Part shown: piece after piece, positions 49,887 to 64,000 of the stretch
Layout: every line of letters begins with the position of its first letter
How positions within the stretch are numbered: the first letter of the stretch is position 1
DNA from: Isosphaera sp.
Lineage (GTDB): Bacteria; Planctomycetota; Planctomycetia; Gemmatales; Gemmataceae
Reading direction: 5' to 3'
Assembly: GCA_013822345.1 (NCBI GenBank)
Contig: PNKH01000020.1
Location: 16,123 to 80,122 of the forward strand
Length of the DNA stretch: 64,000 nt
Made by a program: the position numbers and the translations under genes
The notes under the pieces: model-generated
Told to the model about the DNA's origin: nothing
What the model saw: the letters and a program-made list of their open reading frames with translations, nothing else
Databases searched by the model: none

Positions 49887-49960
49887 GGTCGGGTCCGAGC
49901 CCGAGCGCCAGCGAGGGGAAACGTCGTCCCTCGCTGGCGCTCGGGCTCGGACCCGACCTA
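49884..49960. repeat. Hairpin whose ends supply two opposing stop codons
   Basis: Arms of about 33 bp (49884-49917 and 49928-49960, one extra base) with a 10-base spacer; the arm reads TAGGTCGGGTCCGAGCCCGA. The leading TAG is the stop of the monooxygenase gene on the plus strand, and the same TAG in the other arm is the stop of oleD on the minus strand. It is a likely two-way terminator between convergent genes. Confidence 0.93.
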
Positions 49961-50953
49961 CCCCCGCCCGGCCCGCAGCCGCTCGCCGAGCCGCCGCAGC
50001 CCCTCCGCCACCGTCACCTTCGGCTCGTACCCGAGGTCGCGGCGCGCGGCCGAGATGTCGTACCAGTGCGACGTGGACAGCTGCACCGCCACGAACCGCG
50101 TCATCGGCGGCTCCCCGCTCAGCCGCAGCAGCCAGTACAGGTTCTCGAGCACCCGGCCGGCGAGCCGGGCCTTCCACGCGGTCACCGTCCGGGTCACCGG
50201 CGGCGCCCCCGCCTCGCTCAGCACCCGGTCGATGAACCCCCACAACTCGACCGGCTCGCCGTTCGAGATGAAGTAGTTCTTCCCCGCACACGCCGCCCCC
50301 ACGGCCAGGCGGTCGGCGGCGCACAGGTGGGCGTCGGCGGCGTTGTCGATGTACGTCACGTCGACCGTCACCGGGCGGGTGCCGATCCGGCGGAGCCGGC
50401 CCTTCCGGGCGGCGGCCACCACCCGCGGGATCAGGTGCGGGTCGCCGGGGCCGAAGATCAGGTGCGGGCGGAGCGACACCGTCGCCAGGTCCGGGCCGTT
50501 CGCCGCCACCACCGCCTTCTCGGCCGCCGCCTTCGTCTCCGGGTAGTCGGCGTCGAAGTGGGCGGGGTACGGGAGCGACTCGTCCCCGCCCTCGATGTCG
50601 GCCCGGGCGTGGACGACGCTCGGGGTGGAGGTGTACACGAGCTTGCGGACGCCGTGCTTCCGGCACGCGGCGATGACGTTCTCCGTCCCGGTCACGTTGG
50701 TGGCGACGAAGTCCCGGCGGCGGCCCCACACCCCGGCCTTGGCGGCGACGTGGAACACGATGTCGCACCCGGCGGCGGCCTTCTCGACCGCGGCCGGGTC
50801 GGCGAGGTCGCCGAGGCACTGCTCGACCCCGAACTCGTCCAGCCACGGGTACGCCGACCGGGTGAACGACCGGACGTGGTCCCCGCGCTGCCGGAGCAGC
50901 CGGGCCACCGCCCCGCCGAGGAACCCCCCGCCGCCGGTGACCAGTGCCCTCAT
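49958..50953 (-). CDS. oleD: OleD: NAD(P)-dependent 2-alkyl-3-ketoalkanoate reductase
   Basis: A 331-residue short-chain dehydrogenase/epimerase-type enzyme starting at the ATG at 50953. The Rossmann start is LVTGGGGFLGGAVARLLRQR, followed by NVTGTENVIAACRKHGVRKL and VYTSTPSVVHA; the catalytic Tyr-Lys pair is in DYPETKAAAEKAV. This is the 3-beta-HSD-like group to which OleD belongs. OleD reduces the 2-alkyl-3-keto acid made by OleA to the 2-alkyl-3-hydroxy acid. The start overlaps the oleC stop by four bases. Taken alone it could be a generic NAD-dependent epimerase, but the order A-B-C-D here fits OleD. Confidence 0.85.
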   Translation of the reverse strand: MRALVTGGGGFLGGAVARLLRQRGDHVRSFTRSAYPWLDEFGVEQCLGDLADPAAVEKAAAGCDIVFHVAAKAGVWGRRRDFVATNVTGTENVIAACRKHGVRKLVYTSTPSVVHARADIEGGDESLPYPAHFDADYPETKAAAEKAVVAANGPDLATVSLRPHLIFGPGDPHLIPRVVAAARKGRLRRIGTRPVTVDVTYIDNAADAHLCAADRLAVGAACAGKNYFISNGEPVELWGFIDRVLSEAGAPPVTRTVTAWKARLAGRVLENLYWLLRLSGEPPMTRFVAVQLSTSHWYDISAARRDLGYEPKVTVAEGLRRLGERLRAGRG

Positions 50954-52656
50954 CGGGCCGCCTCCGCCGCGACCGCCGGCCTCCACCGCCGGCCCAGCCT
51001 CTTGTTCGCCCACGCGGCCAGCTTCTCGCGGAAGATCTTCGAGTTGTGCCTCACGTCCACAGGGAACCCGGGGTGTTCGAGGAACGTGGTGACCGGGCGG
51101 ACGTGGTCGAGCCGTCGGCCGGCGTCGCGCAGCTCCCCCGCGAACCGCGCCCACCGCTTCCGCCGGTCGGCCCGGATCCCGACGGGGGTGAGCTCCACGC
51201 ACAGCACAGGGTACGTCCTCCCGCCACGCGCCACGCCGACGAGGGCGGTCCGGAACACGCCCGGGACGGTGTTGAAGACCGGCTCGACCATGTCGGTGAA
51301 CAGCGGCCCGTGCGGGGTCTCGACGCGGTGCGCCTTCCGCCCGCAGAACCACAGCCGGCCCTGTTCGTCCAGGTAGCCCACGTCGCCCATCCGGTGGAAC
51401 ACCTCGCCGGTCCGCGCGTCCCGGATCTTCGCCAGGCCCGTCGCTTCCGGGCGGTTGACGTACCGCCGGGTCACCACCGCCCCGCGGACCACGACCTCGC
51501 CGACCTCCCCGGCCGGCACCCGCAGCGTATCGTCCCACTCCGGGATCGGCCCGTCGGAGATGCGGATAATCCGCACCTCGACCCCCGGCACCGGCCGGCC
51601 CACGCAGACCCCCTTGCCCTGTTCCGTCAGGTGCCGCGTCTCCCCCAGAATCTCCCGGCTGCCGACGTTCGCCACCGGCAAGGCTTCCGTCGCCCCGTAC
51701 GGGGTGAACACCTCGGCCGTCGCGGGCAAGAGCTTCGCCAGCCGCTCGACCGCGGCGGCCGACGCCGGGGCGCCGGCCGAGATGACGCGGCGGAGCGTCG
51801 GGAGCGGGGCGGTCAGCTCGCCGAGCCGGCGGACCACCGCCGGCGAGCCGAACAGGTTCGTCACCCCGAACTGCCTCACCTGGGCGACGGCCTTCCGCGG
51901 GTCGATCCGGGCCGGGCGGGTGGCGTCCATGTCCGGGACGACGCACGTCATCCCGAGGGCCGGGCCGAACAGGGCGAACAGCGGGAACGTGCACAGGTCG
52001 ACCTCGCCCGGCTCGATCCGGTAGGTCGCCTTCAGCGCCTCGACCTGGGCGGCGAAGTTCCCGTGGGTGTACTCCGCCCCCTTCGCCGGCCCGGTGCTCC
52101 CGCTGGTGAACAGGACCGCCGCCGGCTCGTCCGCCGCCACGCCCGGCACCGGGTACGGGCCGCGACCCTTCCCCGACTCGCGGAGGTCGGCGAGCGCGTG
52201 GCGGCAGAAGAACCGCCCCCGGCCGACGTTCACCGTCGCCCGGACGGTGCGCTTCGCCCACCCGAGCAGCCGGCGGGCGAGGTGGGCCTTCGGGACGCCG
52301 ACGAACCCGACCGGCTCCGCCTCGGCCAGGCACCGGCCGAGGTTCCGCACGCCCATGCCCGGGTCGACCAGGACCGGGACCGCCGCGACCTTGAACAGGG
52401 CGAACGTGAGGGCGAAGAAGTCGGCCCCCGGCGGGACCATCAGGGCGGTGCGGACGCCGCGGCCGATGCCGCAGGCGGCGAGGCCGTGGGCGACCGCGTC
52501 GGCGTCGGCGTTCAGCCCGGCGAACGTCAGGGTGAGGTGTTCGGACGGGCCGTCGGGCTTGACGCCGCGGCGCGGGACGTGGACGGCCGGGCGGGCCGGG
52601 TGGTCGGCCGCCATCCGGGCCAGGTGCGCCGCGACGTTCAGCGGAGACGGGGGCAT
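50950..52656 (-). CDS. oleC: OleC: AMP-dependent beta-lactone synthetase
   Basis: A 568-residue ANL-superfamily adenylating enzyme. Motifs: AAVLFTSGSTGPAKGAEYTH (P-loop-like A3), FTPYGATEALPVAN (A5), RMGDVGYLDEQGRLWFCGRK (A7-A8) and the C-terminal VRHNSKIFREKLAAW with the A10 Lys. OleC proteins turn the 2-alkyl-3-hydroxy acid of OleD into a beta-lactone. The start is the ATG at 52656, five bases after the oleB stop. It overlaps oleD by four bases. A long-chain acyl-CoA ligase would look similar; the neighbours decide. Confidence 0.87.
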   Translation of the reverse strand: MPPSPLNVAAHLARMAADHPARPAVHVPRRGVKPDGPSEHLTLTFAGLNADADAVAHGLAACGIGRGVRTALMVPPGADFFALTFALFKVAAVPVLVDPGMGVRNLGRCLAEAEPVGFVGVPKAHLARRLLGWAKRTVRATVNVGRGRFFCRHALADLRESGKGRGPYPVPGVAADEPAAVLFTSGSTGPAKGAEYTHGNFAAQVEALKATYRIEPGEVDLCTFPLFALFGPALGMTCVVPDMDATRPARIDPRKAVAQVRQFGVTNLFGSPAVVRRLGELTAPLPTLRRVISAGAPASAAAVERLAKLLPATAEVFTPYGATEALPVANVGSREILGETRHLTEQGKGVCVGRPVPGVEVRIIRISDGPIPEWDDTLRVPAGEVGEVVVRGAVVTRRYVNRPEATGLAKIRDARTGEVFHRMGDVGYLDEQGRLWFCGRKAHRVETPHGPLFTDMVEPVFNTVPGVFRTALVGVARGGRTYPVLCVELTPVGIRADRRKRWARFAGELRDAGRRLDHVRPVTTFLEHPGFPVDVRHNSKIFREKLAAWANKRLGRRWRPAVAAEAAR

Positions 52657-52661
52657 GCGGT

Positions 52662-53645
52662 TCAGTTTAGCCGCGACGCGGGGCGGATCGGGTGCTTCGC
52701 CAGGAACTCCCGGACCCGCGGGACCACCTCGTCGGGCGCGTCTTCGAGCAGGTAGTGGCCGCAGTCCGGCCAGGTGTGCGCCTCGGCGTGCGGCAGGTGC
52801 CGTTGCCACTCCGCGAGGAAGTGGCGGTCGAACACGAAGTCCCGCATCCCCCACAGCAAGAATGTCGGCACCCCGGCGAACTTCGGCAGTGACAGGGCGG
52901 TGTCACGGACGACGTCGTACCCGGGGTCGGACTCCTTCAGCGGGATGGTCTGGACGAACTTGAGCACCGCGACGCGGTGCTCCGGGGTGTCGTACGGCCG
53001 CAGGTACATGTCGCGCACGTCCGGCGGGAGCGGCCGCCGCGTCACGCACCACTTCGCCGCCGCCCGGCAGAACGCGTTCCGCCTCAGGATCAGCCACGCC
53101 CCGAGGCGGGTGTTCCGGCCGACCCACAGCGACCACGGCAGCCGCTTCGCCGCCGGCAGCGGGAACGCGGCGGTGTTCGTCGCCACGATCCGCTTCACCC
53201 GGTCCGGGTGCCGGGCCGCGAACGCCATCCCGATCATCCCGCCCCAGTCGTGCAGGACGAGGGTCAGGTTCTCGCGAAGCCCGAGGTGGTCGAGGAGGGC
53301 TTCGAGGTCGTCCACCCGGGACTTCAGCGAGTAGTCGTAGACCGACTCCGGCGGCTTGTCCGACAGCCCGCACCCGATGTGGTCGGGCACCACACAGCGG
53401 TAGGCGTCGCGGAGGCCGAGGACCAGGTTGCGGTAGAGGAAGCTCCACGTCGGGTTGCCGTGGAGCATCACGACCGGGTCGCCGGCCCCCTCGTCGAGGT
53501 AGTTCATCGTCAGGTGCGGGCGCCCGAGCAGATCGGGGCGGACGAAATCGTGCGGGTGGAACGGGTACAGCCGGCGGAACTCGGGGTCGTCGAACGGGGG
53601 CATGAACAGGGTCGAAGTCCGGGAGATGACGTGGGCGTCGGGCAT
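52662..53645 (-). CDS. oleB: OleB: alpha/beta-hydrolase beta-lactone decarboxylase
   Basis: An alpha/beta hydrolase of the haloalkane dehalogenase type. It reads FRRLYPFHPHDF, VVMLHGNPTWSFLYRNLVLG (oxyanion turn), VVPDHIGCGLSDKP, LTLVLHDWGGMIGMAFAARH (nucleophile Asp in HDWGG), TFLLWGMRDFVFDRHFLAEW (acid) and DCGHYLLEDAPDEV (His). OleB of the olefin pathway has exactly this Asp-nucleophile layout and releases CO2 from the beta-lactone to give the alkene. The start at 53645 is a choice; an ATG at 53603 is also possible. The last residues ASRLN come from a fragment of a hairpin element (52666-52681 matches 55995-56010). Confidence 0.85.
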   Translation of the reverse strand: MPDAHVISRTSTLFMPPFDDPEFRRLYPFHPHDFVRPDLLGRPHLTMNYLDEGAGDPVVMLHGNPTWSFLYRNLVLGLRDAYRCVVPDHIGCGLSDKPPESVYDYSLKSRVDDLEALLDHLGLRENLTLVLHDWGGMIGMAFAARHPDRVKRIVATNTAAFPLPAAKRLPWSLWVGRNTRLGAWLILRRNAFCRAAAKWCVTRRPLPPDVRDMYLRPYDTPEHRVAVLKFVQTIPLKESDPGYDVVRDTALSLPKFAGVPTFLLWGMRDFVFDRHFLAEWQRHLPHAEAHTWPDCGHYLLEDAPDEVVPRVREFLAKHPIRPASRLN

Positions 53646-53663
53646 GAGGAGCCGGGACTTGTA

Positions 53664-53752
53664 GTAGGGTGGGCCGAGGCCGGCTTTGCGGCCGAGTCCC
53701 TCCACCGTGTCGCTCTGGTGGGACTCGCCGGCGAAGCGCCGGCTCGGCCTAC
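53664..53752. repeat. Diverged hairpin element between oleB and oleA
   Basis: An imperfect relative of the 15871-16012 element: GTAGGGTGGGCCGAGGCCGG on the left and GGTGGGACTCGCCGGCGAAG...CGGCTCGGCCTAC on the right (arms about 36 bp, roughly 80 percent paired). It sits inside the presumed operon, right after the oleA stop codon. Confidence 0.8.
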
Positions 53753-53756
53753 GGGA

Positions 53757-54881
53757 TTACCACTCGACCCCGAGCATCAGGCAGTTCAGCCCGCTGCCGA
53801 TCCCGAGCAGCCCGACCCGGTCGCCGGGCCGGAGGAACTCCCGCTCCTCGGCCAGGGCGGCGGTCAGCGGGAGCGACACCGTCCCGACGTTCCCGAGGAA
53901 CTCGAACGTGCTGAACTCCTTCTCGGCCGGGATCCCGAACGCCTTCAGCATCGCGTCCCGGTGCCCGGCCCCGACCTGGTGGCAGATCACCTTGTCCAGC
54001 TGGTCCGCCGCCCACCCGAGCTTGCCGAGGAACTTCTTCCACGTCCGCAGCCCGAGGTCGACCCCGTACTTCAGCACCTCGCCCGCCCGGGTCTCCATGA
54101 ACGGCACCATCACGTGCCGCAGGCCGAAGTCGATGCTCTTCTGGACCAGCGCCCCGGCCTGCTGGCCGAACACCTTCTCGACCGTGTGGACGGTGGCCGG
54201 GAGGAGCGACTTCATCCCCCACCGGCACAGGGCGTGGTACTCCGGGGCGTTCTGCGCCACCCCGCCGACCACCCGCCGCCGCTTCCCCCGCGACAGCTCC
54301 TCGCTCACGACCAGCACCGCCACCGCCCCGGACCCGCCGGTCAGCGTCGCCACCGACTCCCGGAACAGCTCGACCGACTTGGTCGACACCATCCGGTCGA
54401 TCACGTTCTCGTTGATCTCCCGGGCCGTCTCGGCCGACACCACCAGCCCGGCCCGGGCCTGCCCGAGCTCGATCCGGTTGGCCACCTCGACGATCCCGTT
54501 CAGCACCCCGAGGCAGGCGTTCGAGAGGTCGAACACCGCCGCGTCCGGGTTCAGCCCCAGCTCGTGGGCGACGGCGCAGGCGGTGGCCGGCTCGAACGCC
54601 TCCCGGCACACCCCGGCGTAGATCAGCACGTCCAGGTCGGCCCCGGTCAGCCCGGCCGCGGCCAGCGCCTTCTTCCCGGCGGCGGCCGCCCCCAGCGACA
54701 GCGGGTACCCCGGCTCCCACCACCGCCGCTCGTTGATCCCGGTCAGCAGCTCGAGCTGCCCGGGGCTCATCCGGAGGGCCTGGTACACGGGGGAGAGGCG
54801 CGACTCCAGCTCGGCCGTCGACACGACGACCGGCGGGAGCTCGTACCCGATCGCCTCGATGTGGACCTGGGTGTACTTCAT
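53757..54881 (-). CDS. oleA: OleA: thiolase-fold acyl-CoA condensing enzyme
   Basis: A 374-residue thiolase/KASIII-type enzyme starting at the ATG at 54881. It reads IEAIGYELPPVVVSTAELES at the N-terminus, the active-site Cys in VFDLSNACLGVLNGIVEV near residue 122, His in VICHQVGAGHRDAMLKAFG and Asn in FEFLGNVGTVSLPLTAAL. The layout and the flanking oleBCD genes identify OleA, which condenses two acyl-CoA (or acyl-ACP) chains head to head into a 2-alkyl-3-keto acid. It starts 56 bases after the pfa synthase stop, on the same strand, so the synthase may hand over its product. Confidence 0.9.
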   Translation of the reverse strand: MKYTQVHIEAIGYELPPVVVSTAELESRLSPVYQALRMSPGQLELLTGINERRWWEPGYPLSLGAAAAGKKALAAAGLTGADLDVLIYAGVCREAFEPATACAVAHELGLNPDAAVFDLSNACLGVLNGIVEVANRIELGQARAGLVVSAETAREINENVIDRMVSTKSVELFRESVATLTGGSGAVAVLVVSEELSRGKRRRVVGGVAQNAPEYHALCRWGMKSLLPATVHTVEKVFGQQAGALVQKSIDFGLRHVMVPFMETRAGEVLKYGVDLGLRTWKKFLGKLGWAADQLDKVICHQVGAGHRDAMLKAFGIPAEKEFSTFEFLGNVGTVSLPLTAALAEEREFLRPGDRVGLLGIGSGLNCLMLGVEW

Positions 54882-54937
54882 GCGCACGCGCGAGTCGGGC
54901 GAGGGGCCGGCCCCGGAATCCGGTCCGGAAGCGACTG

Positions 54938-57900
54938 CTAGTCTACGGCGAAGTCCGTCATTTGGTAGATGACCCGGCCGTCGACCGTCAGGAACCCGGC
55001 GGCCGTCAGCCGGCGGGCGGCGTCGTCCGCGGCCGTCACCTCCAGCACGACGGTGACCTCGCGGTCGGCCGGGAGGACCTGCCCGCGGTACGTCCAGGCG
55101 TGCGGCCGGTTCAGGGCCACGGCCGGGGCGGTCCCCCACCGCCGCCACGCGGCGTACTTGAGGAGTTGCAAAAACGATTCCAACCCGAGCGACCCGGGCC
55201 AGACCGGGTCCTGGTGGAAGTGGGCCTGGAAGAACCACGCGTCGGGGTCGACGGCGATCGTCCCGACGACCAGCCCGAGCCCGGCCCGCCCGCCGTCCGG
55301 GACGTAGGCGATGCGGTCGACCATCCGGAGCATCGGGGCCGGGAACGGGGCGTCGTGCGGCAGGGCGCCGGCCTCGGCGCGGCCCGCCTCGGCGGGGGTC
55401 GGCCACGGCACCGGCGCGTCGCGGATCCCGACCTGGTCGCGGAGCGCCGCCCTGGTGAAGAACCCGAAGTACGTCGTCCCGGCGTACACCGGCCCGACCC
55501 GGTCGCGGACCGCCAGGTCGTAGTGCTGGATCACCATCCCGGCCGAGTGCGACACGCCGGTCAGCTTCACCGCGGTCGTCAGGGTGCCGGTGTCGGGGGT
55601 CACCCGCCGGAACTGGGTGGCTTTCCCACCGAGGTTGCGGAACGACAGGTCGTCCGGGCTGGTGAGGGCCGACCCGCAGTACGCGGCGAGCCACCCGCAC
55701 GGCTGCAGGGCGACCTCCAGCAGGACCGCGAACGGCATCGCCCCGGACCGCTCGGCGGCGAAGTACCAGGCGTCGGGCGGGACCTCGTACTCGGCGAGGC
55801 ACGCCGCCCCGGCCTTCATGACGAACGGCTCGCCGGCGGTCGGGGTGGCGCGGGTGAGGAACTGGAACGGCGGGCCGGGCAGGCGGGCGATGACGCGGTC
55901 CCGGTCGAACACCCGGTACGGTTCGCCGAACGCCTCCGACGGGTTTCCGTTCGAGAACGCCAGGATGGAGGCGGAGTCGTACACCACCCGACCGTTTAGC
56001 CGCGACGCGGAGTCCTCGGAGCGGAGCGCGGGCGCGTCCCCCGCGCTCCGCTCCGAGGACTCCGCGTCGCGGCTAAACGGTGCCCACATCCGCTCGAGCT
56101 TCCCCCGCGTCAGCCCCGACATCCGCAGCGACATGCTCGTGATCTCGACGATCGGCTTCCCGTCGGCGGACATCAGCGCGTCGGCGAGGCAGTACGGCTC
56201 CGGGCCGTACCCCAGCTCCTTCACCGTCACCTCGTAGGTGACCGTCCGCGTGGTCCCGACCACCTGGCCGCGGCACTTCAGTCGGCTGTCGACGCCGGGG
56301 ACCGGCTCGCACACCACCCCGCCCGCCTCCCCCACCCACCCGAGCCGCATCAGGAGCACGCGGAGGGTGTGGAGGCAGCACTCGTACATCAGCGTGCCGG
56401 GCATCACCCGGTCGTCGACGAAGTGGCAGGTGAGGAACCAGTCGTCGGGGCGGATGTCGAACTCGGCCCGGACGTACCCGAGGCCGAACCGCCCGCCGGC
56501 CGGGTCGACGACCGGCACGCGGTCGACGAGCCGGAGCATCCCGCCGGGGAGCGTGGCGGGCGAACGGAGCGGCAGGCCGGCGAAGTCCGGGCCGAACGCC
56601 GCGGCGAGGTCGCCGGCGCGGAGCGCGGCCACCTGTTCCGCGGTCAGCGAACACGGCCGCGGCGGGGCGAGGTCGCGCCAGTCGGCCGGCCGCTTCCCGG
56701 GCAGCGGCTTCCGGTCGAGGGCGGTCTGGACGATCCCCTTGCCGGCCGCCAACGCTTCGGCGGTGAAGAACCCGGCGACGCCGTTCCGCATGGTGATGAA
56801 CGGTTGACCATTGACCGTGCCGTCGAACCGGAACCGAAACAGCCAGGCGTCGCCCTGTTGCGTGAACTCGTCGATGTGGATGTCGTAGACGACCGTCTCG
56901 CCGACCGCCGGCAGCCCGCGGTGGAACCGGACGACGGCGTCGAGCAGCCGGTAGACGGCGAGGCCGCGGGTCCGGAGGTCGATCCCGAGGTACCCGGACA
57001 GGAAGAGGTCGGCCTGCCCGGCCTCGACCGCGATCGCGGTCGGGATGCGGCCGGCGTCGAGATACCAGCGGTCGGGGCGGACGGCGTGCTCGGTGACGAC
57101 CCGGCCGCGGGTCAGCGACAGCGGCTCCCCCTCGATCCGGGTGATCCGGTCGACGAGTTGGAGCGGCCCGTCGGGCAGGCGGACGCGGGTCGGGAAGGTG
57201 TCGATCTCGGCGAAGGCCGGCCCGAGGGCGTCGGCGACCTTCCCGGCGGCGAAGGTGCAGCACTGCTCGTAGGTGAGGGACCGGAGCACCCCGTCTCGTG
57301 GGCGAGGCACTCCTGCCTCGCCCGGGTCGGTGCGAGGCAGGAGTGCCTCGCCCACGGGGGTGCCCGCGGCCAGCAGCAGGGTCTGGAACCGGATCACCCC
57401 GGCGACGGACTCGGTGAGCTTCCGGCTGACGCGCAGGAACGCCTCCTGGGCCTGCATGTTCAGCACCCGGACGTTCGCGACCGCCTCGATCACCGGGGCG
57501 AGTGACAACGTGGTGTCAGCGGAGATGGTAGCCGGGGCGGCGGGTCGCGGCGGCAGCCCGACCGGGACGACCACCACGTCCCGCCCGGCGGCGGCCGGCG
57601 GGCGGTGCCCGACGCACCGCGACTCCCCGCCGTACAGCGCCGCGAGGTCGACCGGCAACCGCTCGGCGGCCAGGTGGGCGACGACCCGCAGCACCTGTGA
57701 CGCGGCGTCCTGGCGGGCGGCGTGGGCCGCCCGGGCGAGGTGCGGGCGGTCGCCGAGGATCGCCCCGACCACCCGGGCGCACGAGTTCCCCGGCCCGACC
57801 TCGACGAACGCCCGCACACCGTCCCGGTACGCCGCCTCCACCACCGCCGGCACGTCGATCGGCCCGACCAGCCCGGCCGTGATCGACGCGGCACACTGTT

Positions 57901-60900
57901 CCTCGGTCGGGGTGTAGCTCCGACCCCACGCCCCGCTGTAGACGGTGACGCCGGACGGCGGGGTGACCGGCAGGGTGTGCAACTCCCGGTACGCGGCCTC
58001 GACCGGCCGCCCGGCCTCGCAGTGGGCGAGCGTCACCCCGGTCAGCGGCGTGACCGGCCTGCCGAGCGCGGCGGCCAGGCCGTCCACGTCCGCCCGCGCC
58101 CCGCCGACGACGCACTCGCCGGGGGTGTTCACGATCAGCAGGTACGCCCGGCGTCCGGGGCGGAGGTGGGCGGTCACCTCGTCGGGGCCGGCCGCGATCA
58201 CTCCGACCGCCCAATCGACCGCCTCTCCGAAGTGTGCCCGGGCCGCGTCGTAGGGCGGGGCGAGGTCGGACGCGAACAGCGTCGACCGCTGCATCCGCCG
58301 GAACATCTCGTCCCGGTCGCGCCACGCCCGCACCCCGAACAGCCCGGCACTCTCGCCCAGGCTCAGCCCGACCATCGCGTCGCACCGCACGCCGAGTGAC
58401 ACGAGGATATCACTCACGAGCGCGCCGACGGTGACCTGGCCGAACATCAGGTCGCGCGGCGGGGCGGCGTCGGCGGACCCGTCCCAGAAGTGGTCCGGGG
58501 CGAACTGGCCGCGCAGCAACCCGTTCTCGGCCTGCTGGCAGCGCAGCACCTCCGGCCACTGCGCCGACAGGTCGCGGCCCATCCCGTCGAACTGGTTGCC
58601 GGACCCGGGGAAGACGAACGCCACCTTCGCCGCCGGGCCGAGCGGCCGCGGGGCGTAGAACACCCGGTCGCGGACGGCCGGCCGGGCGCTCGCCGGGAGC
58701 GGCTCGTCGGGGTTCGTCCGGAGGTGGTCGGCCGCGAACCCGACCTGCTCCGCGAGTTCGTCCGCCGACCGGGCGACCAGCGCCGCGGCGAGCCGGCGGT
58801 CGGGCGCCGGCGGCGATGTGCGGAACCACTCCCGGGCGACCGCCTCGATGTTCCGGCCGGCGTGCCGCACCGCGAGGTCGCGGAGCCGCCCGAGACCGGC
58901 GACCAGGTCGGCCGGCGCGTCGCCCTCGACCGCGAACACCGCCTCGGCCCGCGCCCCGAGCGGCTGCCGCCGCTCCGGGTCGGCCGCGTCCCCGGCGTAC
59001 TCCTCCAACGCGATCGCGTAGTGCGTGCCGTCGGCGCCGGCCGCTTCCACCGCCGCCCGCCGCGGCCCGGCCTCGCGGTCGTGCAGCCAGTACCGGGCCG
59101 GCGTCTCCGGCAGAATCTCCTGCCGCAGCGCGACGCACGCCTTCGCCAGAGCCGCGGCCGCGGACGCCGCCCCGACCGCCCCGACGTCGGCCGCCGCGTC
59201 GAACCGCACCGCCCCGTCCGCGACCCCGGCCCGCGCCGCCGCGGTCGCCGCGTCGGCCGCCACCCCGACCCCGGTCACCACCGCGTAGACGCGGTCGCCG
59301 TCCCGCTCCGCGTCGGCCAACCGCTTCAGCACGAACGCCGCCGCCCCCTCGCCCGGCACCGCCACCCCGCCCGGCAGCACCGCCCGCGGGTCGCACGCCA
59401 AGTCGACCCCGCCGACCACGACCCGGTCGAGTTCGCCGGCCCGCAGCGCCCGCACCCCGAGTTCGACCGCCCGCGCCGCCGAGCCTTCTTCGCTGCAGAC
59501 GGTGTGGCTCGGCCCGCCGAAGTGGAACGCCCGCGCCACCCGGCTCGCGGCGATGCTCCCGAGCGCCCCCATCGTCCGGTCCGCGGTCAGCGGCGGCCCG
59601 CCGCCCGCCCCGCTCCACCTCAGGTGGAAGTTCGTCGTGTTCGGGTCCAAGGCCAGGCCGACGAACACCCCGGTCGTCGGGTCGCCCGCGGCGGGCGACG
59701 TGCCGCGGCAGTCGTCGAGGGCGGCGGCCGCGACGTTCAGCAGCAGCAACTGCTGCGGCAGCGTCTCGGCCAGCTCCTTCGGCGGGGTGCGGAACCGGCC
59801 GGCCGACACGGACAGCGACTCGATCCCGAACGCCGGCGGGCACGGCTCCGCGGCCTGGCCCCAGCCGTTCGCCTTCGGGGCCGGGACGGCCGGGTCGGCG
59901 GCGAAGACGTGCTCCTGGAACGTCCGCAGGTCGTCCCACGGCCCGAAGTGTGCCCCCACCCCGACCACCGCGACCGGCACCGCCTCACGCCGCGGCTCGG
60001 GGTAACTCACCTCGGCCGCCGACGCCCCGGTCCACTCCTCGATCAGGAGGTGGGCGTTCACCCCGCCGAACCCGAACCCGCTCACCGCCGCCCGCCGCGG
60101 TCCGCCCCCCCGCCGCTCCCACGGCTCCGGCGCCGACAGCACCCGGAACGGCCCGCCGGCGTACCGCAGCCCGTCCGCCGGGCCGGCGAAGTTCGCCTGC
60201 GGCGGCAACAACCCGGCCCGCATCGCCAGCAGCACCTTCCCGACCGCCGCCGCCCCGGCCCCGGTCAAGAGGTGGCCGACGGTCGACTTCACCGACCCGA
60301 TCGGGCAGCGGCCCGGCTCCCACCCGCTCTCGCCCCACAGCTCGCGCAGGCTGTCGAACTCGACCGCGTCGCCGACCGGGGTGCCGGTCGCGTGGCACTC
60401 GACCAGGTCCACGTCCGTCGGCCGCCACCCGGCCTTGGCGTAAGCGGACCGCATCGCCCGCAGTTGCCCCTCCTTCGCCGGGGCGAGCAGGTTGCCCCGC
60501 ATGTCGTTCGACACCCCCACCCCGGCGATCACCCCCAAGACCGTGTCGCCGTGCGCCAGCGCGTCCGACAGCCGCTTCAGCACGAACACGCCCGCCCCCT
60601 CGCCGACCATCAGCCCGTCGGCCGCGGCCGAGAACGGCGAGCACCGGCCGGACGCGGACAGCGCCCGCAGCTGCGAGAACCCCATCTGCGTGTACTGGCA
60701 GTCCGGCCGCGAGCACCCGCCGGCCAGGACCGCGTCGAGCCGGCCGGCGAGGAGGTCGTCGGCCGCCAGCTTCAGGGCGTACAGCGACGAGGCGCACGCC
60801 GCGTCGAGGGTGAAGCTCCCGCCGCCGAGGCCGAGGCCCTTCGCCAACAGGCCGGCCGGCAGCCCGGCGACGTACCGGTTCAGCGGGTGGGTGCGGCCGG

Positions 60901-61327
60901 GCGCCCCGCCGAGCACCTCGCGGCAGAGGGCGTTCGCCTTGTCCGTCGGCAGGCAGATGTTCCCGAGCACCACCCCGACCCGCGACCGGTCCACGGCGTC
61001 GGTCTTCGCCCCGCGCCACGCCCGGTTCCCGACATCAAGAACCAAGTGGAACAGCGGGTCGAGTTCGGCCACCAGGCCCGGGTCGAGGGCGAGGCCGGTG
61101 AGGTCCGGGGCGAACGGGTCGAGGTCGTACCCGCGGGCGGAGTACACCGTGTCCGGGTTGGCGATGCGGGGGTCGAGGCAGCGGTCCGGCGGCAGCGCCC
61201 ACCGCCCGGCCGGCACCTCGCGGGAGCAGTCGGCGGCGGCCGCGACGTTCGCCCAGAACCGGCCGAGGTCCGGGCCGGACCCGGGCAAGCGGGCGGAGAA
61301 GGAGACGATCGCGACGCGGTCGGTCAT
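54938..61327 (-). CDS. Pfa3/PfaC-like polyunsaturated fatty acid synthase: KS-CLF-AT-DH-DH
   Basis: A 2129-residue multidomain synthase. Residues about 5-430: ketosynthase with LDAACASSLYALKLAADDLL (active Cys near 177), ECHATGTPVGDAV and STVGHLLTGAG (His pair). Residues about 450-790: chain-length-factor-like KS in which the Cys site is HTVCSEEGSAARAV (Cys replaced by Glu). Residues about 890-1250: acyltransferase with VAFVFPGSGNQFDGMGRDLS and GLSLGESAGL (Ser near 990). Then two double-hotdog dehydratases: a His-less half (WYLDAGRIPTAIAVEAGQAD, near 1424), an active half (CHFVDDRVMPGTLMYE, near 1637), a His-less half (YFAAERSGAMPFAVLLEVA, near 1861) and an active half (AHFHQDPVWPGSLGLESFL, near 2037). 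This resembles Pfa3 of myxobacteria but without the terminal acyltransferase. Two hairpin elements are inserted in frame. Confidence 0.92.
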   Translation of the reverse strand: MTDRVAIVSFSARLPGSGPDLGRFWANVAAAADCSREVPAGRWALPPDRCLDPRIANPDTVYSARGYDLDPFAPDLTGLALDPGLVAELDPLFHLVLDVGNRAWRGAKTDAVDRSRVGVVLGNICLPTDKANALCREVLGGAPGRTHPLNRYVAGLPAGLLAKGLGLGGGSFTLDAACASSLYALKLAADDLLAGRLDAVLAGGCSRPDCQYTQMGFSQLRALSASGRCSPFSAAADGLMVGEGAGVFVLKRLSDALAHGDTVLGVIAGVGVSNDMRGNLLAPAKEGQLRAMRSAYAKAGWRPTDVDLVECHATGTPVGDAVEFDSLRELWGESGWEPGRCPIGSVKSTVGHLLTGAGAAAVGKVLLAMRAGLLPPQANFAGPADGLRYAGGPFRVLSAPEPWERRGGGPRRAAVSGFGFGGVNAHLLIEEWTGASAAEVSYPEPRREAVPVAVVGVGAHFGPWDDLRTFQEHVFAADPAVPAPKANGWGQAAEPCPPAFGIESLSVSAGRFRTPPKELAETLPQQLLLLNVAAAALDDCRGTSPAAGDPTTGVFVGLALDPNTTNFHLRWSGAGGGPPLTADRTMGALGSIAASRVARAFHFGGPSHTVCSEEGSAARAVELGVRALRAGELDRVVVGGVDLACDPRAVLPGGVAVPGEGAAAFVLKRLADAERDGDRVYAVVTGVGVAADAATAAARAGVADGAVRFDAAADVGAVGAASAAAALAKACVALRQEILPETPARYWLHDREAGPRRAAVEAAGADGTHYAIALEEYAGDAADPERRQPLGARAEAVFAVEGDAPADLVAGLGRLRDLAVRHAGRNIEAVAREWFRTSPPAPDRRLAAALVARSADELAEQVGFAADHLRTNPDEPLPASARPAVRDRVFYAPRPLGPAAKVAFVFPGSGNQFDGMGRDLSAQWPEVLRCQQAENGLLRGQFAPDHFWDGSADAAPPRDLMFGQVTVGALVSDILVSLGVRCDAMVGLSLGESAGLFGVRAWRDRDEMFRRMQRSTLFASDLAPPYDAARAHFGEAVDWAVGVIAAGPDEVTAHLRPGRRAYLLIVNTPGECVVGGARADVDGLAAALGRPVTPLTGVTLAHCEAGRPVEAAYRELHTLPVTPPSGVTVYSGAWGRSYTPTEEQCAASITAGLVGPIDVPAVVEAAYRDGVRAFVEVGPGNSCARVVGAILGDRPHLARAAHAARQDAASQVLRVVAHLAAERLPVDLAALYGGESRCVGHRPPAAAGRDVVVVPVGLPPRPAAPATISADTTLSLAPVIEAVANVRVLNMQAQEAFLRVSRKLTESVAGVIRFQTLLLAAGTPVGEALLPRTDPGEAGVPRPRDGVLRSLTYEQCCTFAAGKVADALGPAFAEIDTFPTRVRLPDGPLQLVDRITRIEGEPLSLTRGRVVTEHAVRPDRWYLDAGRIPTAIAVEAGQADLFLSGYLGIDLRTRGLAVYRLLDAVVRFHRGLPAVGETVVYDIHIDEFTQQGDAWLFRFRFDGTVNGQPFITMRNGVAGFFTAEALAAGKGIVQTALDRKPLPGKRPADWRDLAPPRPCSLTAEQVAALRAGDLAAAFGPDFAGLPLRSPATLPGGMLRLVDRVPVVDPAGGRFGLGYVRAEFDIRPDDWFLTCHFVDDRVMPGTLMYECCLHTLRVLLMRLGWVGEAGGVVCEPVPGVDSRLKCRGQVVGTTRTVTYEVTVKELGYGPEPYCLADALMSADGKPIVEITSMSLRMSGLTRGKLERMWAPFSRDAESSERSAGDAPALRSEDSASRLNGRVVYDSASILAFSNGNPSEAFGEPYRVFDRDRVIARLPGPPFQFLTRATPTAGEPFVMKAGAACLAEYEVPPDAWYFAAERSGAMPFAVLLEVALQPCGWLAAYCGSALTSPDDLSFRNLGGKATQFRRVTPDTGTLTTAVKLTGVSHSAGMVIQHYDLAVRDRVGPVYAGTTYFGFFTRAALRDQVGIRDAPVPWPTPAEAGRAEAGALPHDAPFPAPMLRMVDRIAYVPDGGRAGLGLVVGTIAVDPDAWFFQAHFHQDPVWPGSLGLESFLQLLKYAAWRRWGTAPAVALNRPHAWTYRGQVLPADREVTVVLEVTAADDAARRLTAAGFLTVDGRVIYQMTDFAVD
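55991..56081. repeat. 91-bp hairpin inserted in frame in the pfa synthase gene
   Basis: Perfect 41-bp arms (55991-56031 and 56041-56081) with a 9-base spacer, the longest perfect arms in the window. It encodes about 30 residues (RDAESSERSAGDAPALRSED in the middle) that are rich in Ser/Arg/Asp and absent from family text, between the active DH1 half and DH2. Confidence 0.95.
57297..57356. repeat. 60-bp hairpin inserted in frame in the pfa synthase gene
   Basis: Perfect 25-bp arms (57297-57321 and 57332-57356) with a 10-base spacer. The 60-base length keeps the frame. It encodes VGEALLPRTDPGEAGVPRPR, in the linker between the acyltransferase and the first dehydratase. Confidence 0.95.
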
Positions 61328-61334
61328 ACGGATC

Positions 61335-61443
61335 CCGGGAAGGAACGGCCGGGCGAACCGCGACCGTCAGGGAGCGGGTGTGGGGCGTGACACCCGCTCC
61401 CTGACGGTCGCGGTTCGCCCGGCACCCGGCCGTTCTTTCCCGG
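61335..61443. repeat. Two-part hairpin between the two pfa genes
   Basis: Inner perfect 33-bp arms (61349-61381 and 61390-61422, 8-base spacer) inside an outer 16-bp stem (61335-61350 and 61428-61443, one mismatch). It fills almost the whole 124-base gap between the two synthase genes. It would attenuate or process the message rather than simply end it if both genes are one operon. Confidence 0.93.
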
Positions 61444-61451
61444 AAGGCGGG

Positions 61452-64000
61452 TCACTGCTTGACGAGCTGGTTGCGGCGGAACGCCTGGTTCAGCGTCTTC
61501 TCCATGACGCACTCGTAGTCCTGCATCTGGGCCACCACCCGGCCGTCCGAATCCAGGTAGTCGATGTCGGCCCGGGCGAACGTCCCGTCGTCCCGGCGGA
61601 TCCGGATCACCACCGTCGTCGGGTCGCTCGGGAAGCTCTTGCGGTACTGCCGGTACCGGCCGGCGAAGCACGGGAGCGACCCGGTGTCGTGCCGGGCCTG
61701 GGTCCACAGGATCATCATCTGGAAGCTGGCGTCGAGCACCAGCGGGTCGGCCACCCACCCGGACCGGAGCGGCGCCCGGAACCACCCGGCAGGGGCCGGG
61801 GCCGGCCGGGCGGTGCCGATGAACGCGTCGTAAGACGCCCCCTCGATCGCCTCGATCCCGCGCAGCCCCGGGCCGTGGAACAGCCGGTCCCGGTACGCCT
61901 CGGCGACCGAGTACGGGACCGCCGTCACCGGCGGCGGGCGGTCGGCCGGCGGGGCCGGCGGGAGGGCCGCGGCCAGCACCACCTCCGCCCGGGAGTGGAC
62001 CGCGTCCCGCCCGTCCCGCCGCCGCCCGCGCAGCTCGACCGGGACGACGAACGTCTTCCCCTGCTTCACCGCCTTGCCGGCCAGCGCCCGCAGGTGGACC
62101 GGGCCGGACCCGTCCACCTGCACCGCGCTGGTCACCCGCAGGTCGTTGAACCCGTGGAACACCAGGCCCGGGTTCCCGTGCAGGGCGGCGTGGGCCAGCC
62201 ACTCCAGGTGGACGGCCAAGGGGAGGACCGCCCGGCCGTCCAGGACGTGGGCGGCCAGGACCGGGTGGGTGTCGGCGTCCACCACCCGCTCGAACGCCGG
62301 GGCGAGGTCCGGGGCCGGGGCCGGCGGGGTGGCGGCCGGCGGCGGGGTCACCCCCGACCCGGCCGGGGCCGGGACGATCCCGGACCCCGGGGCCCCCGGC
62401 GGGCGGGCCAGGGCGACCACCTCGACCGCCCGCCCGGCGGCCCCCAGCTCGTCCACCAGGAACCGGGCCCCGTCGGCCGGCGGGATCAGCCCGACCCCCT
62501 CGGCCTCGAACAGCTTCCGCAGCCCGGGGGTGACCATCCCGCCGTCCCACGGCCCCCAGTTCACCGCCACCACCCGGCACCCGGGGCGGCGGCGGGCCTC
62601 GGCCTGGGCCGTCTTGTTCAGCACCTCGTTCGCGCAGGCGTAGGCGGCCTGGCCGACCCGCCCGAGCCGGGCCGTCGTCGAGCTGAACAGGGCCAGGACC
62701 TTCAGGTCGTCCGGGCCGAGCAGGTCGAGCAGGTTCCGCAGGCCCCCGACCTTCGTCCCGTAGACGTGGTCGAACTGCTCCGGCGTCAGGTCCTCGACCC
62801 GCCGGTCGGCCAGCACCCCGGCCCCGTGGACGACCGCCGTCACCGGGCCGAACTTCGCCCGCACCTGCCGGACCAGCTCGGCCACCGCCAGCCGGTCGGT
62901 GATGTCGACCGCGAAGTACGCCGCCCGGTGCCCGGCGAGCCGGTCCAGGGTGCGGCGGACCTCCCGCCCGGCCACCACCCGGTGGTACTGCTCCCCGACC
63001 TGCCGCGGCCCGGCGGACGGGCCGAGGTGCTCGGCGATCGCCTTCTTCAGCTCCGCCTCCCCGGTCACCCCGGCCAGCCAGGCCGGTTCCGGGGCCGGGG
63101 TCGCGGTCCGGCCGGTCAGCACCAGGGTAACCGGGAACGCCTCGGCCAGGGCGACCGCGGCCTCGGCCGTCACCCCGCGGGCCCCGCCGGTCACCAGCAC
63201 CACGTCCTTCGGCCCGAGGTCCGGCGGCGACCCCGGGCGGCGCACGGCCCGGGCTAGCTCCAGGGTGCAGCGGTGGGTGGCGGTCACCCCGACCTCGGCC
63301 GGCCCGACGGCCAGCACCTCGTCGGCGACGGCGGCGGCCGCGGCCCGGGCGTCGGCGAACCCGGGGTCCACGTCCAGGGCCTTGCACGCCACCTCCGGCC
63401 ACTCGTGCCGGGCGGTCTTGGCCAGCCCGGCGAGCCCGCCGGCGGTCGGGTCGGCGTCGGCCGCCAGGTTCGCCAGCCCGAACGCCCCGTCGAGCCGGGC
63501 GACGGTGGCCAGGAGCGCCCCGGCGGCGCGCCCGGCCTGCCGGAGCCGCGGCCCGGCCGCCTTCACCCACCCGAACGCCCGGCGGTTCAGCCCGGGGTCG
63601 GTGTCGCGCCCGGCCGGGGCGACCAGGACCAGCCCGGCGACCGACCCCGGGACCGCGTCCGGGACCGGGTCGGCCCAGCCGAACGCCTTCGGCCGCAGCC
63701 CGCGCCCGGTCAGGGCGACCGCCACCGCCGCCGGGAGCGGGTCGCCGCCGCCGACCACCCACACCTCGGCCCCGGCCGGGACCTGGACCCGCCCGCGCGG
63801 GGCGGCCGGGTCCAGGTCCGCGACCCGGAGGACGCTCCGGTCGATGACCGCGGCGGCCGGGGCCTCGGCCGGCGGGCGGCGGGCCCCGGAACCAGATACC
63901 GGGGCCGGCTCGGCCGGGGGCGGCGGCTCCGGGGCGGCGGGGGCGGGGTTGTACGGCTGGATCGGGATCTTGGCCGTGGTCGGGCCGGGGTCGGGCCTGG
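61452..64000 (-). CDS. Pfa2/PfaA-like synthase, C-terminal part (KR and DH), 5' end outside window
   Basis: The frame is open to the window end, so only the C-terminal 849 or so residues are seen; the GTG at 63764 is an internal codon. Upstream is a Pro/Ala linker (YNPAPAAPEPPPPAEPAPVS) of the kind that separates ACP domains. A KR follows: VVLVTGGARGVTAEAAVALA (NADPH loop near 63190) and LFSSTTARLGRVGQAAYACA with the Ser/Tyr/Asn site. A PKS-type dehydratase follows: HPVLAAHVLDGRAVLPLAVH (catalytic His) and PLVLDASFQMMILW (catalytic Asp). This is the end of a Pfa2-type protein (KS-AT-ACPs-KR-DH), working with the downstream synthase. An enoyl reductase partner must lie outside the window. Confidence 0.88.
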   Translation of the reverse strand, partial: RPDPGPTTAKIPIQPYNPAPAAPEPPPPAEPAPVSGSGARRPPAEAPAAAVIDRSVLRVADLDPAAPRGRVQVPAGAEVWVVGGGDPLPAAVAVALTGRGLRPKAFGWADPVPDAVPGSVAGLVLVAPAGRDTDPGLNRRAFGWVKAAGPRLRQAGRAAGALLATVARLDGAFGLANLAADADPTAGGLAGLAKTARHEWPEVACKALDVDPGFADARAAAAAVADEVLAVGPAEVGVTATHRCTLELARAVRRPGSPPDLGPKDVVLVTGGARGVTAEAAVALAEAFPVTLVLTGRTATPAPEPAWLAGVTGEAELKKAIAEHLGPSAGPRQVGEQYHRVVAGREVRRTLDRLAGHRAAYFAVDITDRLAVAELVRQVRAKFGPVTAVVHGAGVLADRRVEDLTPEQFDHVYGTKVGGLRNLLDLLGPDDLKVLALFSSTTARLGRVGQAAYACANEVLNKTAQAEARRRPGCRVVAVNWGPWDGGMVTPGLRKLFEAEGVGLIPPADGARFLVDELGAAGRAVEVVALARPPGAPGSGIVPAPAGSGVTPPPAATPPAPAPDLAPAFERVVDADTHPVLAAHVLDGRAVLPLAVHLEWLAHAALHGNPGLVFHGFNDLRVTSAVQVDGSGPVHLRALAGKAVKQGKTFVVPVELRGRRRDGRDAVHSRAEVVLAAALPPAPPADRPPPVTAVPYSVAEAYRDRLFHGPGLRGIEAIEGASYDAFIGTARPAPAPAGWFRAPLRSGWVADPLVLDASFQMMILWTQARHDTGSLPCFAGRYRQYRKSFPSDPTTVVIRIRRDDGTFARADIDYLDSDGRVVAQMQDYECVMEKTLNQAFRRNQLVKQ

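Follow-up and report, generated by a model that had tools for sequence, protein, structure and literature searches.

A recurrent pfa-ole neighbourhood in Gemmataceae points to a probable pathway for polyunsaturated hydrocarbons

Does a polyunsaturated fatty acid (PUFA) synthase whose genes lie beside the olefin genes oleABCD supply the chains that the Ole proteins join? The question is raised by a stretch of 64,000 nucleotides from the planctomycete Isosphaera sp. (family Gemmataceae), here called the window (G000:C20:16123-80122). Its minus strand carries, from 5' to 3', the C-terminal part of pfaA (61452-63998), a pfaBC fusion gene (54938-61327), oleA (53757-54881), oleB (52662-53645), oleC (50950-52656) and oleD (49958-50953), with gaps of 124, 56, 111 and 5 bases and, between oleC and oleD, an ATGA overlap of 4 bases. 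The original prediction had described this order, the gaps and the domains, and had proposed a long-chain polyunsaturated hydrocarbon as the product. The layout is borne out by the coordinates and by Pfam and NCBIfam searches. The predicted direction of the product is supported by the conserved neighbourhood, the co-occurrence of the genes, the active-site residues of OleA and published precedent, and on these grounds we consider it likely, with a probability of roughly 80%, that the PUFA-type synthase builds a polyunsaturated chain and that OleABCD would turn two such chains into a long polyunsaturated olefin.

The neighbourhood is widespread in the family. Family searches of 95 Gemmataceae genomes, the whole of the set examined, found oleA in 74 of them, pfaD in 77 and the end of pfaBC in 73. 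Of the oleA-bearing genomes, 73 also carry one or more pfa genes; a single genome (G078, 79% complete) has oleA only, six have pfa genes only and 15 have neither (Fisher P = 7e-12, uncorrected for kinship). Both pfaBC and oleA were found in 71 genomes, and in 65 of these the two share contig and strand with their match edges 10-524 bases apart, a recurrence that puts the arrangement beyond chance and confirms the synteny that the original prediction had suggested looking for in other Gemmataceae. A contig that carries pfaD as well as oleA is present in 29 genomes, the match starts lying 12.9-17.1 kb apart. Among the 21 loci collected, pfaBC precedes oleA in 19; the exceptions are L031, which starts inside oleA, and L030 (G017), which covers 1.27 kb before oleA without pfaBC. 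OleC was found in all 12 genomes queried and OleD in 11, the exception being G088, where oleC ends the contig.

The association is also seen in the phylum at large. Of 148 Planctomycetota genomes sampled, 54 have oleA and 29 have pfaD, and oleA is present in 27 of the 29 pfaD-bearing genomes as against 27 of the 119 without pfaD (counted by hand; the Fisher test was run uncorrected for kinship). The two genes share contig and strand in 16 of the 27 genomes that have both, 13-37 kb apart and in ten other families. A tree of 66 OleA rows, none of them dropped (53 genes from the phylum sample, which are all of its oleA genes except the window's, seven divergent Gemmataceae, five loci and the window), divides with 100/100 support into a side of 26 rows, all without pfaD, and a side of 40 rows, 38 with pfaD and two without (G078 and G205, the latter 91% complete). 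The pfa label changes three times on this tree against 21.5 in shuffles, and none of 500 shuffles was as low, although near kinship makes such labels cluster, which leaves this test weaker than the case of G237. Family f2 has no other pfaD-bearing member in the sample than this genome, whose OleA lies on the pfa side, and the 11 other f2 rows lie on the other side. By its sequence, the OleA of the sampled pfa-bearing planctomycetes is thus a lineage of its own, which follows pfa and does so once against taxonomy.

The two sides of the tree are fixed for different residues at five positions, Q42/R, E94/D, I156/L, T179/S and G182/I (40 against 26 rows; residues picked after the tree was built), and others are nearly so. 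The solved OleA 3fk5 has V42, D94, V156, A179 and L182 at these positions as aligned by eye. Position 182 is, presumably, one that lines the acyl pocket, as we take it from FabH. The sides differ, too, in a variable stretch at 222-268, which has 20-74 residues on the pfa side and 15-21 on the other. These differences point to residues that may set the choice of chain.

The pathway may be pictured as follows. By analogy with characterised Pfa synthases, PfaA (ketosynthase (KS), MAT, acyl carrier protein (ACP), ketoreductase (KR) and dehydratase (DH)), PfaBC (KS, chain length factor (CLF), acyltransferase (AT), DH and DH) and the enoyl reductase PfaD would build the chain on the ACPs. The AT of PfaBC, judged by its match to PfaB, is likely the off-loading step, to coenzyme A or to another ACP. 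OleA would then condense two chains head to head. This protein of 374 residues exceeds the cut-off of its NCBIfam model NF006720 (459.7 against 285 bits), and its Glu97, Cys123, His301 and Asn331 align by eye with the active site of 3fk5; these residues are observed, and the Pfa chains are its presumed substrate. Following the established biochemistry of their families, OleD would reduce the condensed chain, OleC close it to a beta-lactone and OleB decarboxylate the beta-lactone. The predicted olefin would probably have about 31 carbons, like those of Shewanella and Geobacter.

The window holds only the end of the synthase. It ends where its contig ends (C20 is 80122 bases long) and the pfaA frame is open there, so that the KR and PS-DH domains in the window, which correspond to positions 1861-2581 of the PfaA model TIGR02813, are a C-terminal fragment. 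The PfaD-type enoyl reductase that the original prediction had suggested looking for upstream of the window was found on contig C10 (C10:97520-98821; TIGR02814, 623.6 bits against a cut-off of 449.25), and from C10:99075 (L046:11076-14315) it is accompanied by a KS-MAT fragment of PfaA that runs off the end of that contig (102316 bases). The KS, MAT and KR of pfaA are thus present across two contigs. The TIGR02813 cut-off (1010 bits) is reached by neither PfaA piece alone and by no other match in the genome. Since relatives have the whole set on one contig, we infer that the end of C10, with pfaD and the first part of pfaA, adjoins the window. Three matches to PF01648, the phosphopantetheinyl transferase family, lie elsewhere in the genome (C118, C115 and C206) and none on C10 or C20. 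Upstream of the pfa genes on C10, frames at L046:2918-5713 resemble, by eye, the genes for ribosomal protein S4, RNA polymerase alpha and L17. In Gemmata sp. IIL30 (G018), which shares its genus with the window genome, pfaD is present as two overlapping frame pieces (L052; G018:C4:768126-769438), possibly a frameshift or a sequencing error.

Several observations weigh against a common pathway. In six of the 71 genomes (G010, G013, G016, G017, G054 and G077) pfaBC and oleA are on different contigs. Other genes follow pfaBC in five of these, and in G016 there are 817 bases after pfaBC without oleA; in at least five of the six the two genes seem to be truly apart. Genomes with pfa but no oleA found are G014, G038, G045, G055, G085 and G090, of which several are incomplete or have pfa at a contig end, and in the phylum sample G107 and G246. 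The clearest is G055 (90% complete), where a complete pfaD-pfaA-pfaBC run is followed by a gene on the opposite strand (L056; G055:C235:10000-29999); the 3.4 kb read after pfaBC hold no ole gene, and the search of this genome found no oleA. Either the synthase can exist alone or these assemblies are incomplete. The ole genes are not always together: relatives of Limnoglobus (G061 on C2, G062 on C15; also L051) have oleC-oleD upstream of pfaD, at a distance from oleA-oleB, in G060 and G096 oleC-oleD lie about 1 Mb from oleA, and G010 and the oleA stretch L060 yielded oleA alone. OleC, an AMP-binding protein resembling olefin beta-lactone synthetase, and OleD, which resembles 2-alkyl-3-oxoalkanoate reductase, match the olefin equivalog models strongly yet fall short of their cut-offs (669 against 900 and 448 against 580 bits); these models rank best or second best for the two proteins. 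No ACP was recognised in the C10 KS-MAT piece or in the window's pfaA piece. Finally, a hyperstable palindrome lies between pfaA and pfaBC, and the co-transcription of the two genes is not certain.

Some of these points can be set in context. We take the break between C10 and C20 to fall around the ACP region of pfaA: read through in G003, pfaA is a single frame of 2317 residues with two ACP motifs. Of 12 related stretches, some cut by contig ends, 10 have one or two copies of the motif. The oleC-oleD pair of the Limnoglobus relatives appears as if relocated as one unit, and oleA and oleB remain with pfaBC in L025, L028 and L029. In Limnoglobus roseus a frame on the other strand (L025:11844-12725), with a prepilin-like N-terminus as seen by eye, stands between oleA and oleB. 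OleB, an alpha/beta hydrolase of haloalkane dehalogenase type, scores 182.8 with the haloalkane dehalogenase models, below their cut-off of 241.

The six of 95 Gemmataceae genomes with pfa but no oleA found are what would be expected if the pfa genes made a free or membrane PUFA, with the ole genes drawing on type II fatty acids and the neighbourhood reflecting shared regulation only. The PfaB-type AT could likewise off-load chains to general lipid synthesis (PMC12895367). Against this stand the 65 of 71 genomes in which pfaBC adjoins oleA, the distinct OleA lineage that follows pfa, and the statement for PUFA-producing marine bacteria that OleA uses the predicted Pfa chain exclusively despite type II fatty acid synthesis (Allemann 2019, PMC6463001). 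We regard a free PUFA as quite unlikely, and prefer the joint pathway to a polyunsaturated olefin.

How would the chain leave the synthase? Myxobacterial Pfa3 is marked by a terminal acyltransferase domain of the PF01553 type. The original prediction saw that PfaBC lacks the terminal acyltransferase of its myxobacterial homologues and proposed that OleA may take over the release. The first part holds, the myxobacterial domain being absent from PfaBC, but PfaBC contains a PfaB-type AT (57548-58690, minus strand) with Ser989 in the motif GLSLGE. Its best match in the PDB is 9ry8 (chain PfaBs; E = 1e-16, the next match being at 2e-7), to which it aligns over residues 12-353 of 381, the catalytic Ser included. 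By eye, the position of the malonyl-specific Gln holds another residue, and the window protein keeps Arg at a position where PfaBs has Asn and which varies among relatives; of the 86 proteins listed with one match to the motif, the window's included, 25 have Arg there. We take 9ry8 to be the structure belonging to a 2026 study in which the PfaB proteins of Shewanella baltica and of Moritella marina are named the terminal acyltransferase; transfer from acyl-CoA to ACP was shown there in vitro and off-loading in vivo was left open (PMC12895367).

Read as a mechanism, the release idea has OleA drawing chains straight off the ACPs of PfaA and thereby freeing them, with no other off-loading enzyme. 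Family searches found no thioesterase or PF01553-type domain in the cluster proteins, and OleA still made a 31:8 ketone from Pfa chains in Escherichia coli without fadD (PMC6463001), as direct capture would allow. The AT of PfaBC with its catalytic Ser speaks against it, and the 120 homologues listed, out of 4436, all lack the PF01553-type domain, so that its absence is no mark of ole linkage. We therefore reject the missing acyltransferase as a sign of ole coupling and consider a take-over of release by OleA for that reason unsupported; direct capture as such seems unlikely to us. A release gene conserved apart from ole was not recognised either: downstream of pfaBC in G055, G054, G010, G077, G013 and G017 we saw no shared gene and no thioesterase, looking by eye, with no family search, at up to 150 N-terminal residues of each frame of at least 130 residues (in G055 over the 3.4 kb after pfaBC, the contig's last 4 kb left out), and upstream of pfaD the look for such a gene was confined to the window's own genome. 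Release by the PfaB-type AT is the simpler reading suggested by the protein's sequence.

The nature of the chain is indicated by the rest of PfaBC (2129 residues). Its profile matches comprise two ketosynthase-type stretches, weak AT models and FabA-like stretches: a KS with Cys178, a CLF in which, by eye, Glu replaces the Cys, and, beyond the AT, four FabA-like folds in the order DH'-DH-DH'-DH. Two of these carry the catalytic His (His1635 at 55958-56575 and His2036 at 54941-55375, both on the minus strand) and two do not, as is the case in PUFA synthases. A fusion with KS, CLF, AT and two FabA-type dehydratases agrees with the Type I secondary lipid synthases, as far as the fusion named for them is concerned, the full Type I domain order being no part of the comparison (Shulse & Allen 2011, PMC3098273).

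Related secondary lipid synthases make other long-chain products, and the synthase could accordingly make a hydroxylated, saturated or aryl-linked one. Type I was in 2011 among the types with uncharacterised products (PMC3098273), and the genome has another synthase of the superfamily. But two FabA-type dehydratases with catalytic His together with PfaD are the set of a PUFA synthase, and one organism listed with such a cluster, Geobacter bemidjiensis, is a producer of hentriacontanonaene (PMC3098273). Another kind of product is, in our judgement, improbable, and a polyunsaturated chain remains the preferred reading. The other synthase is encoded on contig C2 (L043:6221-13642; 2473 residues) and has an NMO (PfaD-like) domain followed by KS-AT-ACP-KR.

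The small gaps from pfaA to oleD make a single transcript plausible, although two palindromes, assigned to neither strand, interrupt or close the run. One, in the gap between pfaA and pfaBC (61348-61423), is perfect over 34 bp with a loop of 8; the other, immediately 3' of oleD (49887-49958), is perfect over 31 bp with a loop of 10. The RNA of the whole pfaA-pfaBC gap is predicted to fold with -105.7 kcal/mol (z -11.4) and that of the palindrome after oleD with -78.4 kcal/mol (z -10.9), and neither palindrome has a T-run. The 34-bp arm recurs exactly, mostly paired, in L002, L004, L034/L043, L044 and L046 of the same genome, which identifies this palindrome as a dispersed repeat. The repeat is also found within the reading frame of the synthase on contig C2 (L043:9931-9975). 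The GC content makes the scans for sigma-70 promoters (no match, 0.1 expected) and terminators (four matches, 2.4 expected) uninformative. An artefact of wrongly called frames in GC-rich DNA was considered and ruled out, all six frames matching families of the expected kind. Carriage on a plasmid was rejected; seven plasmid records matched, at 28-37% identity.

Taken further, the evidence allows a more specific and tentative proposal, which we put forward as possible rather than probable: the planctomycete Pfa synthase would be a dedicated hydrocarbon maker, in which the separate OleA lineage with its changed pocket (for example Gly182 in place of Ile, or of Leu in the solved OleA) takes polyunsaturated chains from the built-in PfaB-type AT, and the cell would obtain a polyunsaturated membrane hydrocarbon and no free PUFA. 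Gemmata cells have unusual internal membranes, and a dedicated membrane hydrocarbon is therefore worth seeking in them. Some planctomycete descriptions reportedly mention C31 polyunsaturated alkenes, and Sukovich is said to have grouped OleA sequences by product in 2010. A literature search, based mostly on search listings, pointed to no product and no C31 alkenes from a planctomycete. The neighbourhood in 65 of 71 genomes and the OleA group that follows pfa make the olefin proposal of 2011 directly testable.

Compared with known systems, the locus combines familiar parts. PfaB and PfaC are separate proteins in Shewanella and in Photobacterium profundum SS9, and are fused here. Myxobacterial Pfa3 has the same KS-CLF-AT-DH order and differs in its terminal PF01553-type domain. 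The AT resembles PfaB (9ry8; PMC12895367) in alignment and catalytic Ser, and differs in lying inside PfaBC. A Pfa synthase and OleABCD are common to the window, Shewanella and SS9; OleA was shown to join Pfa chains, predicted to be 16:4, and thereby to link both pathways (PMC6463001). In SS9 the pfa and ole operons are adjacent with a thioesterase gene (pfaT, orf6) between them, and no hydrocarbon was detectable from this strain (PMC6463001), whereas here no gene separates pfaBC from oleA. In the original prediction the joining of pfa and ole was presented as novel, which is overstated in view of the adjacent SS9 operons and of the linkage described in 2011, when ole genes were found to co-occur with such synthases in 44 of 80 genomes, often linked, and olefin synthesis was proposed (PMC3098273). 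The pfaBC fusion, the ole co-occurrence and the role as a source of olefin precursors are common to the Type I clusters, of which Gemmata obscuriglobus is the Planctomycete member, and the pairing has thus been proposed for this group already; whether G. obscuriglobus itself has the two linked is not stated in the relevant passages (PMC3098273). Olefin genes, traced via oleC, have also been recorded in Planctomycetes and Gemmataceae of a lake (PMC10176705). Where the passages of 2011 name one Planctomycete of Type I and give no planctomycete product (PMC3098273), the present analysis has the order pfaD-pfaA-pfaBC-oleABCD and its recurrence over 95 genomes, and it adds the frequency with which pfaBC and oleA recur together and a separate OleA lineage.

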